Shown here in pieces: positions 280 through 6,653 of a DNA stretch of 64,000 nucleotides. The number at the start of each line of letters is the position of its first letter. Position 1 is the stretch's first letter. Under the pieces are notes generated by a model, which was not told the DNA's origin, ran no database searches, and worked only from the letters and a program-made list of their open reading frames with translations. Source of the stretch: Roseomonas gilardii subsp. gilardii (GTDB lineage: Bacteria; Pseudomonadota; Alphaproteobacteria; Acetobacterales; Acetobacteraceae); the NCBI RefSeq assembly GCF_023078375.1, contig NZ_CP095554.1:3898501-3962500 (forward strand). The letters are read 5' to 3'. The position numbers were made by a program, and so were the translations under genes.

Positions 280-738
280 TCAGCCGCCCAGCTTCGCCTT
301 CACGATCGGGCCGACCTTGGCCATGTCCAGCGTGGCCGCGTGTTTCGCCTTCAGCGCCGCCATCACCTTGCCCATCTCCTTGATGGAGCCGGCCCCGGTC
401 TCGGCGATCGCCGCCTCCACCGCCGCCGTGGTCGCGGCCTCATCCATCTGCTGCGGCAGGAAGCCCTCGATCACCGCGATCTCGGCCTCCTCCTTCGCCG
501 CCAGTTCGGGACGGTTGCCCTGGCGGTACATCTCCACGCTCTCGCGCCGGCTCTTCGCCATGCCGCGCAGCATGGCGACGATCTGCTCGTCCGGCACCTT
601 GTCCACGCCCGAGGGGCGCGCGGCGATGTCGGTGTCCTTCAGCTTCGCCATGATCATGCGCAGCGTGGAGGTGCGGGCGGCATCGCCCGCGCGCATGGAG
701 GCCTTGAGTTCCTCAGTGAATCGGCTGCGAAGGTCCAT
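280..738 (-). CDS. yqeY: GatB/YqeY domain protein
   Basis: A 152-residue protein made of the YqeY/GatB tail domain alone. It begins MDLRSRFTEELKASMRAGD and has the family pattern of an RxSTLRMI helix, a Glu/Lys-rich middle (AAKEEAEIAVIEGFLPQQM) and a closing MAKVGPIVKAKL. The family is related to the tRNA-binding tail of the GatB amidotransferase subunit; its own role is not settled. The ATG at 738 was chosen because AGGAAGGAGAG stands just before it; a longer in-frame start at 807 lacks this. The gene is divergent from carA, a neighbourhood common in alphaproteobacteria, and the 161-bp gap between them holds the carA operators, which could also affect this gene. Confidence 0.85.
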   Translation of the reverse strand: MDLRSRFTEELKASMRAGDAARTSTLRMIMAKLKDTDIAARPSGVDKVPDEQIVAMLRGMAKSRRESVEMYRQGNRPELAAKEEAEIAVIEGFLPQQMDEAATTAAVEAAIAETGAGSIKEMGKVMAALKAKHAATLDMAKVGPIVKAKLGG

Positions 739-800
739 CAGGCCCTCTCCTTCCTGTTCTGGCGTCATCCGGCCGGCCCCCGTGCCGGACGGGCGGAAAC

Positions 801-887
801 TTCCCACCCGCTCGCCGGGAAAACGGTGTTGGGAAATTTCTTCCCAGGCTCACGCGGGATTTCTTTGACTTGGGAAACCACTTCCCA
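801..887 (+). promoter_or_regulatory. array of TGGGAA-N5-TTCCCA palindromes upstream of carA
   Basis: Two identical-arm palindromes, TGGGAAATTTCTTCCCA at 830-846 and TGGGAAACCACTTCCCA at 871-887, share arms TGGGAA/TTCCCA with a 5-bp spacer. A third TTCCCA half-site sits at 801-806. The TTCCCA arms begin at 801, 841 and 882, so they are 40 and 41 bp apart, about four helical turns, as expected for dimers on one DNA face. The likely reader is the HTH domain fused to CarA, but that is inference. Confidence 0.7.
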
Positions 888-893
888 GATAAC
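865..893 (+). promoter_or_regulatory. predicted carA promoter, spacer filled by operator
   Basis: TTGACT at 865-870 resembles a -35 box and GATAAC at 888-893 a -10 box. They are exactly 17 bp apart, and that spacer is precisely the palindrome TGGGAAACCACTTCCCA. A transcript starting about 7 bases after the -10 box would begin at or near the A of the ATG at 900, which fits the lack of any Shine-Dalgarno sequence and suggests a leaderless mRNA. Confidence 0.55.
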
Positions 894-899
894 CCCGCC

Positions 900-2315
900 A
901 TGCGTTCCGTGGAAGAGATCATCCGCCTCGCGGGCGGGGCGGAGGCCGTGGCCCAGCGCTGCGGCGTGGGCGGCGAGGCCGTCCGCAAGTGGCGCCAGGC
1001 CCGCGCCATCCCGCCCAAGCACTGGCCCGCCCTGATCGCCGCCACCGGCCTGTCCTTCGGGGACATGCCGGGCGCCTCCGTGGCCACCCCGGCCGATCCC
1101 GCCACGCCGCCCCCCTCCCCCGTCCTCGCGGAGCCCTCCATGCCCGAAGCCGCCGACACCCCGCCCGCCGGCGCGACCGCCTGCATTGTCCTGATGGACG
1201 GCACGGTCTTCTGGGGCCGAGGCTTCGGCGCCGCCGGGACCCGGGCGGGCGAGATCTGCTTCAACACCGGGCTGACGGGCTATCAGGAAACCCTGACCGA
1301 CCCCTCCTATGCCGGGCAGATCATCACCTTCACCTTCCCCCATATCGGGAATGTCGGCGCCAATGCCGAGGATGTGGAGACCATCACCCCCGCCGCCCTC
1401 GGCCTGATCACCAAGGCCGATGTCACCGAGCCCTCCAACTACCGCGCCCAGCGCCACCTGGACGACTGGCTGAAGAGCTTCGGCATCCCCGGCATCGCCG
1501 GGGTGGACACGCGCGCGCTGACCATCCGCATCCGTGACGGCGGCCCGCCCAACGGCGTCATCTGCCACGCGCCCGATGGCCGCTTCGACCTCGCCGCGCT
1601 GCGCGCCCAGGCCGCCGGCTGGCCGGGGCTGGAGGGCATGGACCTCGCGAAGGAGGTGTCCTGCCAGCAGTCCTACCGCTGGGAGGAAGGGCTCTGGCGC
1701 TGGAACCAGGGCTATGAGGCCAGCCCGGCGAAGCGCCACAAGGTCGTGGCCGTGGACTACGGCGCCAAGCGCAACATCCTGCGCTGCCTGGCCGATGCCG
1801 GCTGCGACGTCACCGTGGTCCCCGCCACCGCCACGGCGGAGGAGATCCTGCGCCACGGGCCGGACGGCGTCTTCCTCTCCAACGGCCCCGGCGACCCGGC
1901 GGCGACTGGCGAATACGCCGTGCCCGCCATCCGCGGCGTGCTGGAGAAGCAGGTCCCCGTCTTCGGCATCTGCCTCGGCCACCAGCTCCTCGCCCTGGCG
2001 CTCGGCGCCCGCACCTACAAGCTGGACCGCGGCCATCGCGGCGCCAACCAGCCGGTGAAGGACCTCGCCACCGGCAAGGTCGAGATCACCTCGCAGAACC
2101 ACGGCTTCGCGGTGGACGAGAAGAGCCTGCCCGAGGGGGTGAAGGTCACCCATGTCTCGCTCTTCGACGGCTCCAACGAAGGCATCGCCTGCGAGGCGAA
2201 GCGCGCCTTCTCCGTCCAGTACCATCCCGAGGCCTCGCCCGGCCCCTCCGACAGCCACTATCTCTTCCACCGCTTCACCGCGCTGATCGAGAACGTGAAG
2301 GGGAAGGCGGCATGA
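900..2315 (+). CDS. carA: carbamoyl phosphate synthase small subunit with N-terminal HTH domain
   Basis: The glutaminase subunit of carbamoyl phosphate synthase frees ammonia from glutamine and channels it to CarB for arginine and pyrimidine synthesis. This protein has 471 residues, about 90 more than usual. Residues 1-55 (MRSVEEIIRLAGGAEAVAQR then GEAVRKWRQ and IPPKHW) look like a YdaS/Cro-type helix-turn-helix; 56-92 are a Pro/Ala-rich linker. The normal CarA domain starts near residue 93 (CIVLMDGTVFWGRGFG). The class I amidotransferase domain has nucleophile Cys358 (GICLGHQ) and the YHPE pair His442/Glu444. The ATG at 900 has no ribosome site but fits a leaderless transcript; the longer TTG start at 870 would run through an operator. 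The stop overlaps the next gene by ATGA. Confidence 0.93.
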   Translation: MRSVEEIIRLAGGAEAVAQRCGVGGEAVRKWRQARAIPPKHWPALIAATGLSFGDMPGASVATPADPATPPPSPVLAEPSMPEAADTPPAGATACIVLMDGTVFWGRGFGAAGTRAGEICFNTGLTGYQETLTDPSYAGQIITFTFPHIGNVGANAEDVETITPAALGLITKADVTEPSNYRAQRHLDDWLKSFGIPGIAGVDTRALTIRIRDGGPPNGVICHAPDGRFDLAALRAQAAGWPGLEGMDLAKEVSCQQSYRWEEGLWRWNQGYEASPAKRHKVVAVDYGAKRNILRCLADAGCDVTVVPATATAEEILRHGPDGVFLSNGPGDPAATGEYAVPAIRGVLEKQVPVFGICLGHQLLALALGARTYKLDRGHRGANQPVKDLATGKVEITSQNHGFAVDEKSLPEGVKVTHVSLFDGSNEGIACEAKRAFSVQYHPEASPGPSDSHYLFHRFTALIENVKGKAA

Positions 2316-3070
2316 CCGCCCTCTTCGACCTCGCCGGCCGCACCGCCATCGTCACCGGCGGCAATGGCGGGATCGGCCTCGGCATGGCGCGCGGCCTCGC
2401 TGCCTGCGGCGCCCGCGTCGCCGTGGTGGGCCGCAACGCGGAAAAGAACGCCGCTGCCGCCGCGGCGCTCGGCGGCGGGGCCTTCGCCCTCCAGGCCGAC
2501 CTCGCCGAGCCCGGCAGCGCCGACCGCGTGGTGGCCGAGGTGGTGGCCCGCGCCGGCGGCCTCGCCATCCTGGTCAATAATGCGGGCACCAATATCCGCC
2601 GCCTGCCGCAGGATGTGTCGGACGAGGACTGGTACGCCGTCATGGACGCCAACCTCACCAGCGCCATGCGGATGAGCCGCGCCGCCTATCCGCATCTCAG
2701 GGCCTCCGGCCATGGGCGGGTGATCTCGATCGGCTCGATGATGTCGATCTTCGGCCTGCCGCTCTCCCCCGCCTATGGCGCCAGCAAGGGCGGCATCGTG
2801 CAGTACATGCGCTCCCTCGCCGTGGCCTGGGGGCCGGACGGGATCACCGCCAACGCCATCCTGCCCGGCTGGATCGAGACCGAGCTGACCGCCGGCGCCA
2901 AGCGCGACATGCCCGACCTGAACGACCGCGTCCTGGCCCGCACGCCGCAGAAGCGCTGGGGCCTGCCGGGCGACTTCGCCGGCATCGCCGCCTTCCTGGC
3001 CAGCGACGCCGCCGCCTTCGTCACCGGCACGGCCATCCCGGTGGATGGCGGGCTGTCGGTGCACGGCTGA
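2312..3070 (+). CDS. SDR family oxidoreductase
   Basis: A 252-residue classical short-chain dehydrogenase. The nucleotide-binding TGGNGGIG is at 15-22, NNAG at 89-92, and the catalytic Ser (ISIGSMMS, near 139-145), Tyr155 and Lys159 (YGASK) are in place. The C-terminus (ITANAILPGWIETEL, later TGTAIPVDGG) is the usual FabG/gluconate-dehydrogenase-like ending. An Asp/Arg pattern after strand 2 (VVGRN) hints at NADP. The start codon overlaps the carA stop (ATGA), so the gene is translationally coupled to carA. No role in carbamoyl phosphate metabolism is evident, and the substrate cannot be read from sequence. Confidence 0.85.
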   Translation: MTALFDLAGRTAIVTGGNGGIGLGMARGLAACGARVAVVGRNAEKNAAAAAALGGGAFALQADLAEPGSADRVVAEVVARAGGLAILVNNAGTNIRRLPQDVSDEDWYAVMDANLTSAMRMSRAAYPHLRASGHGRVISIGSMMSIFGLPLSPAYGASKGGIVQYMRSLAVAWGPDGITANAILPGWIETELTAGAKRDMPDLNDRVLARTPQKRWGLPGDFAGIAAFLASDAAAFVTGTAIPVDGGLSVHG

Positions 3071-3092
3071 GGCACGGGGCAGGCCACCCGCC

Positions 3093-3359
3093 ATGATGCT
3101 CCCCGCCCTCCTCCTGCTGGCCTGCCTCGCCTGCATGGGGCTGAGCTATGGGTTGTGGCGGGCCTTCCTGCGCGCCGGGCGGCCCGGCCACCCGATGGCC
3201 ATGGCCCTCCTCGCCTCGCTGCTGGTCTCGGGGCTGCTGCTCTGGCTGTTCCGCGACCGCGCGCCGCCGAACCTGCCGGTGAACGGGCTGACCGAGGCGC
3301 TCTACATCGCCTGCCTGCTCAACATCCCCGCCGCCATCCTGCTGACCTGGCGCCGCTGA
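3093..3359 (+). CDS. small membrane protein, unknown
   Basis: An 88-residue hydrophobic protein with about three membrane helices (residues near 2-22, 32-52 and 65-84) and a short polar loop RDRAPPNLPVNGLTE. It starts at the ATG at 3093, or the next ATG at 3096, 22 bp after the dehydrogenase stop and 48 bp before carB, so it is probably co-transcribed with the carA-carB cluster. I recognise no family. Confidence 0.55.
   Translation: MMLPALLLLACLACMGLSYGLWRAFLRAGRPGHPMAMALLASLLVSGLLLWLFRDRAPPNLPVNGLTEALYIACLLNIPAAILLTWRR

Positions 3360-3407: not shown

Positions 3408-6653
<3,246 letters not shown>

Follow-up and report, generated by a model that had tools for sequence, protein, structure and literature searches.

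Why should an enzyme that starts arginine and pyrimidine synthesis carry a DNA-binding domain? This question is raised by the carA gene (900..2315, + strand) in a 64,000-nucleotide stretch of the Roseomonas gilardii subsp. gilardii genome (contig NZ_CP095554.1), which is referred to here as the window. A single open reading frame (ORF), running from ATG 900 to the stop at 2315 (471 aa plus stop), encodes a helix-turn-helix (HTH) domain fused to the small subunit of carbamoyl-phosphate synthase (CPSase). A preliminary description of this DNA had suggested that CarA might act as the transcription factor of its own gene. Genome comparison now lends strong support to that suggestion, as candidate binding sites are nearly confined to carA, lie in its core promoter and are absent from genes without the HTH. 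These patterns argue that the HTH on CarA would, in all likelihood, autorepress carA.

The fused protein and its distribution

The HTH domain occupies residues 4-51 (909..1052, +), where the profile NF046037.1 carph-isopro scores 59.8 bits against the whole protein and 63.4 bits against residues 1-94, over its cut-off of 38. The N-terminal HTH that had been read from AGGAEAVAQRCGVGGEAVRKW (residues 11-31) was confirmed by this match and by the predicted fold. The domain name 'carph-isopro', which had also been proposed, was likewise correct, while its reading as 'isopropylmalate' was not confirmed; the partners seen outside the family are mitofilin-like or dehydrogenase-like. A linker (residues 54-92; 1059..1175, +), predicted with a local distance difference test score (pLDDT) below 50 at residues 62-80, leads to the CarA core (residues 93-471; 1176..2312, +). 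This core exceeds the curated cut-off of TIGR01368 (CarA, CPSase small subunit) with 456.1 bits against 307.35, and E. coli CarA aligns from residue 93, the point at which canonical CarA had been said to begin. The glutaminase subunit is also intact as described: C358, H442 and E444, which we take to be its catalytic Cys-His-Glu triad, are unchanged across 58 aligned fused proteins (out of 89 diverse proteins picked).

AlphaFold2 modelled residues 1-60 as four helices (4-10, 14-21, 25-34 and 39-49; mean pLDDT 89.4), the third of which (residues 25-34; 972-1001, +) is the putative recognition helix. Foldseek ranked the Cro proteins of N15 and Xfaso 1 highest for this model, at a best E of 0.025, so that the structural check against YdaS and Cro folds returned an HTH of Cro-like type. 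Pfam scores were under the gathering cut-offs both for YdaS_toxin (PF15943; 21.9 and 25.0 bits, cut-off 30) and for P22_Cro (PF14549; 17.3 and 20.3 bits, cut-off 30.2), the fold being nevertheless Cro-like. Identity as a YdaS toxin was rejected on this sub-cut-off score, the family-wide fusion to CarA and the operators at the gene's own promoter. Two C2 stretches resembling HTH DNA scored 22.5 bits, below cut-off, and were also set aside. Ten residues are invariant in 108 fused sequences (G12, G13, E26, A27, R29, K30, W31, P38, H41 and W42), and these include three helix 3 residues of exposed type, E26, R29 and K30.

The domain exceeds its cut-off in 278 of 299 genomes sampled from the Roseomonas family (Acetobacteraceae), in 148 of 150 genomes of an order sample, where all matches came from the same family and overlap with the family sample, and in 44 of 240 genomes of a class sample. 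Every one of the 51 family loci read (L022-L070, L090, L097) is a CarA fusion, and no CarA was seen among the domain ORFs of 27 loci outside the family. Named GTDB genomes yielded 22 loci with the HTH. In 21 of them, from Roseomonas, Pseudoroseomonas, Belnapia, Acetobacter, Novacetimonas and other genera, it is fused to CarA; the remaining one, L252 from a Dehalococcoidia metagenome-assembled genome, was dismissed as a chance match. A CarA search of 23 family genomes (19 without a domain match and four others) gave seven proteins over cut-off. CarA is complete and HTH-less in G210, G029 and G116 and fused in G066, whereas in G026, G178 and G146 the beginning of the core is missing, two of these three lying at a contig end. 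G116 has a domain match elsewhere than at carA. The HTH changes state three times on a tree built from 117 CarA cores, which we read as one apparent gain at the family's base followed by two losses. Some loci are irregular. Two ORFs of 124 and 105 codons carry the domain without CarA (L152 in G323 and L153 in G149) in genomes that also hold a longer fused-type ORF, and L129 (G088) has intact operators and HTH but a CarA frame that breaks off shortly past the linker, through either an assembly frameshift or a real lesion.

Candidate operators and inferred promoter of the fused genes

Palindromes had been noted near 795-900, and the pattern scan found two perfect copies of TGGGAA-N5-TTCCCA there, operator O1 at 830..846 (+) and operator O2 at 871..887 (+). 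Shuffles of the 64-kb window showed that the count of such palindromes at up to two mismatches is not unusual; at full identity the whole 4.62-Mb genome (G000) contains three, two of which are O1 and O2, with the third inside a 666-aa ORF. A scan of this genome allowing one mismatch gave 7 sites, compared with 2 for the reversed pattern. A scan of 60 genomes from the family gave 55 perfect sites, versus 6 for the reversed-pattern control, and 50 of the 55 lie directly upstream of carA. For this count carA was positioned by domain searches; six genomes with an unlisted carA, together with G036, were fetched and all have the sites at an HTH-carA. The other five perfect sites fall in the 666-aa ORF of G000 (L007), in long open frames (L197, L198 and L199) or in no frame of 120 codons (L196), and no CarA was found on L196 to L199. 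The survey across Acetobacteraceae that had been proposed thus describes a fusion that is close to family-wide and sites that are nearly restricted to one gene. A regulon beyond carA is unsupported by the perfect-site scan of the 60 genomes, looser patterns having been tried in G000 alone, at no more than one mismatch.

The operators were then scored out of 10 in a wider set, scanning 250 bp before the ATG of fused genes and 400 bp before the core in outgroups. The window and 111 loci were entered, from which L158 (10 bases), L154 (no domain by phmmer) and L152 and L153 (domain without CarA) were dropped, giving 108 fused carA genes from 76 genera, with 12 genes from one genus. L129 was kept for promoter counts and excluded from the tree. 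Loci L022-L070 were the best-scoring matches and L100-L151 about one per genus from listed places, neither being a random draw, and the 108 genes are related, so their counts cannot be treated as independent. In 84 of these genes both of the top two sites score at least 9, and in 100 both score at least 8. In 5400 shuffles of the same upstream regions the best site reached 10 once and the second-best never reached 9. These two sites stand 36-44 bp apart in 96 of the 108, most often 38-40, and 41 bp apart in the window. Both sites also score at least 9 in 19 of the 22 named GTDB loci, some of whose genomes overlap with the main set.

Genes without the HTH differ. An outgroup of 30 loci from 45 matching genomes included two fused family members; in the 28 unfused carA genes of other families that remained, the site pair is absent (best site at most 8, second at most 7). 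The three HTH-less family members G210, G029 and G116 have sites scoring 7-8 and 6-8 at unrelated spacing. The sites therefore follow the HTH rather than carA itself.

The position of O2 relates it to transcription. In the window it exactly fills the 17-bp spacer between an inferred -35 hexamer, TTGACT (865..870, +), and an inferred -10 hexamer, GATAAC (888..893, +), which ends 6 nt short of ATG 900. Family-wide, the near site directly follows TTG in 63 of the 108 fused genes (background 1.3%); of the 63, 58 have a -10 that stops 6-8 nt short of the ATG, and 58 have A at -10 position 2. This A fits the lax promoter motif of Gluconobacter oxydans (ttGnnn, nAtnnn), for which 62 leaderless mRNAs (5%) are reported (PMC5756330). 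Given how close the -10 lies to ATG 900, a leaderless carA mRNA starting at or beside that codon is probable, and transcripts beginning downstream of the N-terminal extension, which had been put forward as grounds for abandoning the idea, are disfavoured as products of the main promoter. An alternative TTG start at 870 was set aside because the predicted transcript begins downstream of it. In a second layout the near site stands 60-95 bp before the ATG (61-65 bp in Acetobacter and Novacetimonas); by eye, its right half lies on a -35 and the ATG follows a purine-rich leader. As the operator covers the core promoter in both layouts, repression is favoured.

We propose that HTH-CarA is a catalytic subunit with negative autoregulation of its own gene. 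Paired Cro-like N-terminal domains would bind the two palindromes that precede carA. The near one forms the -35/-10 spacer of a probable leaderless promoter or, in Acetobacter-type genera, lies further up and seems to overlap the -35. Since the near operator overlaps the core promoter, protein bound there would exclude RNA polymerase. On the comparative evidence, there seems little doubt that HTH-CarA binds operators of the O1/O2 type, and it very probably represses carA. Binding could instead activate transcription or merely bend the DNA, and O1 does lie upstream at a position typical of activators, but this is highly improbable as O2 fills a promoter spacer of optimal 17-bp length, from which a bound dimer should exclude polymerase. 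It is also quite improbable that another, unlinked regulator binds the palindromes and that the HTH of CarA is a structural or protein-protein domain. Several separate regulators do act on E. coli carAB (PMC6245113), and HTH-like folds are also seen in enzymes such as HppE and MPnS; against this reading stand the near-confinement of the palindromes to carA, their absence from the unfused and HTH-less genes, and the invariant exposed-type residues of helix 3.

Several observations weigh against self-repression by HTH-CarA. The structural match is modest, with no Foldseek hit under E 0.001 for the HTH model, and HTH-like folds also occur, among the structural matches, in the enzymes HppE and MPnS, which have no known DNA role. 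The fold alone therefore proves nothing, and the argument rests on the operators. Eight of the 108 genes lack two sites scoring at least 8 (L042, L046, L115, L118, L120, L123, L134 and L135), although some of these have variant letters and L115 and L120 keep one good site. Strict helical phasing of the pair is absent from the 108 genes and was rejected as a feature, the spacings falling into classes of 38-40, 44 and 48-50. Nor does covariation between HTH and operator amount to proof. Half-sites without G at position 2 average 0.71 in genes that have lost Q33 and 0.10 in others, and 13 genes with shifted operators include 6 of the 7 Q33-loss genes; Q33 is, however, retained in 7 of those 13. 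Q33 changed four times on the tree. In independent pairs the operator shifted in the matching direction in a mean of 3.4 of the 4 and in no case in the opposite one, but four events are too few for significance (median p 0.25). Correlations of S24 and G35 with the operator are less clean than that of Q33.

The operators sit between carA and a divergent yqeY-like gene (280..738, -; identified by ORF and domain search), which borders the same intergenic region as O1 (window 738-830). In G036 (L230:1511-1566) the end of O1 is 17 bp from the yqeY ATG, so that the carA operators might also control yqeY.

A probable internal start in the linker

Does the gene make only one form of CarA? In the window, an in-frame ATG at codon 81 (1140..1142, +) is preceded by a Shine-Dalgarno (SD)-like GGAG (1130..1133, +), and family statistics mark it as the probable start of an HTH-less CarA, which the preliminary description had not noted. 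Linkers of fused proteins are 13-53 residues long. An in-frame ATG within the linker, clear of the end of the domain, is present in 73 of the 108 genes; methionine makes up 3.2% of linker residues compared with 0.9% of the later protein. In 54 of these 73 genes GGAG, AGGA or GAGG begins 9-14 nt before the ATG. A null of 1000 synonymous recodings gave 18.1 +/- 2.9 such genes, with a maximum of 27, and one of 1000 codon shuffles gave 7.8 +/- 2.4, with a maximum of 16. Where two linker ATGs were present the SD-bearing one was taken, and the same choice was kept in the nulls. The motif persists in 43 of 62 genes after removal of similar stretches.

These statistics suggest that a second, internal start is probably used, giving a CarA without the HTH. 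The alternative that the SD-led ATG is unused, a relic of the carA start from before the fusion, is somewhat unlikely. An existing carA, once fused, would leave its old start behind, and 35 of the 108 genes lack a linker ATG away from the domain end, a figure that also counts against our proposal: 6 of the 35 have GTG or TTG with an SD, leaving 29 of the 108 that show no second start. A relic is harder to reconcile with an SD kept above both nulls in an otherwise variable linker, with an ATG whose distance from the core shifts from -5 to -39 codons, and with the HTH-less L160, sister to the fused L060 (support 92), which starts with MPDIQQPDGATAALVL at the matching place, where L060 has MPDARPDGATAALVL. 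On the reading that the internal start is used, the SD-led linker start would in many species yield HTH-less CarA from the same gene, and therefore only part of the CarA pool would act as repressor.

Possible gating of the proposed repression and comparison with known systems

Gating of repression by a metabolite or by CarB is possible, though we lean slightly against it. In one version, which we regard as unlikely, the gate would be how the synthase is assembled or which ligand it has bound, the four HTHs of an (alpha-beta)4 tetramer holding the two palindromes. Two palindromes do need four HTHs, and carB (3408..6653, +; ORF and domain search), the gene for the partner subunit, retains the oligomerisation and MGS-like domains. 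In E. coli, CPSase occurs as a heterodimer when UMP is present and as a tetramer in the presence of ornithine, MgATP and K+ (PMC6245113). By these E. coli rules the tetramer would form when carbamoyl phosphate is wanted, which is the wrong sign for end-product control and a difficulty for self-repression as well; the spacing of the two sites also varies among genes. The earlier suggestion that the enzyme could read its own flux state would, in its simplest form, in which the tetramer binds and the heterodimer does not, meet the same problem of sign if the E. coli effector rules apply. A sensor of surplus CarA or plain concentration feedback is at least as likely as tetramer gating. The interval between carA and carB (window 2312-3359) contains a gene for a short-chain dehydrogenase, which overlaps the stop of carA, and a small ORF with no Pfam match.

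The same HTH occurs on other proteins. Among 10 domain proteins from outside the family, Pfam identified 7 as mitofilin and 2 as zinc-dehydrogenase. The mitofilin (Mic60-like) proteins, over cut-off for PF09731 in L071, L074, L079, L080, L083, L088 and L095, carry the HTH on their N-terminal side, and we offer no explanation for a Cro-like domain on a membrane-shaping protein. A palindrome, CGTCAA-N13-TTGACG, is common to L093 and L099 (1411-1435 in each) shortly before the start of the HTH-bearing protein of zinc-dehydrogenase type, possibly marking another enzyme in which an HTH is paired with an operator at its own gene. The neighbouring divergent gene looks like that of an acyl-CoA mutase. 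A broader scheme is rather doubtful: the two CarA isoforms would mix in one synthase, CarB assembly or ligands (UMP, ornithine) would determine the number of HTHs available to the carA promoter, the enzyme thereby reporting its state to its gene, and the HTH module would also have been added to other enzymes (the zinc-dehydrogenase type of L093 and L099) with a palindrome before their own start.

If self-repression by HTH-CarA is correct, nearly all members of the family, among them the acetic acid bacteria, begin to make arginine and pyrimidines via a self-repressing enzyme, with a phage-type Cro-like domain integrated in central metabolism. The balance between repressor and enzyme would be determined by the probable two-start gene. 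Reporting of enzyme state to the enzyme's own gene becomes testable with one protein and one promoter, for which the relatives that have neither the domain nor the sites serve as a natural control. A literature search covering few subscription journals found nothing published on this fusion, its operators, promoter or second start. The domain is already catalogued by NCBI and trigger enzymes are a known class; the operators, promoter and second start appear to be new.

The DNA-binding domain of PutA is a ribbon-helix-helix fold. PutA belongs with BirA, NadR, PepA and PyrH among the trigger enzymes of E. coli, and binds only the putA/putP spacer, which it represses (PMC8249747). HTH-CarA resembles these proteins in being a metabolic enzyme that would double as a regulator: sequence and predicted structure place a complete enzyme and a DNA-binding domain within one chain, as in the PutA type, and conserved palindromes place operators at its own promoter. 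It differs from PutA in the enzyme, in its Cro-like fold, in an operator that forms the spacer of a probable leaderless promoter and in a probable HTH-less isoform. The carAB operon of E. coli, regulated by PepA, PyrH, ArgR, PurR, RutR and IHF (PMC6245113), involves the same gene and has enzymes that join in its transcriptional control, but the regulators there are separate proteins, whereas here the DNA-binding domain lies within CarA. In contrast to the Cro proteins of N15, Xfaso 1 and P22, to which the best Foldseek match has an E of 0.025, the domain here resides within an enzyme, and nearly all of its perfect sites occur at a single gene. Finally, the CarA N-terminal domain is a clear member of NF046037 carph-isopro, an entry that, as displayed, states no function and to which candidate operators, a promoter and a second start can now be added.
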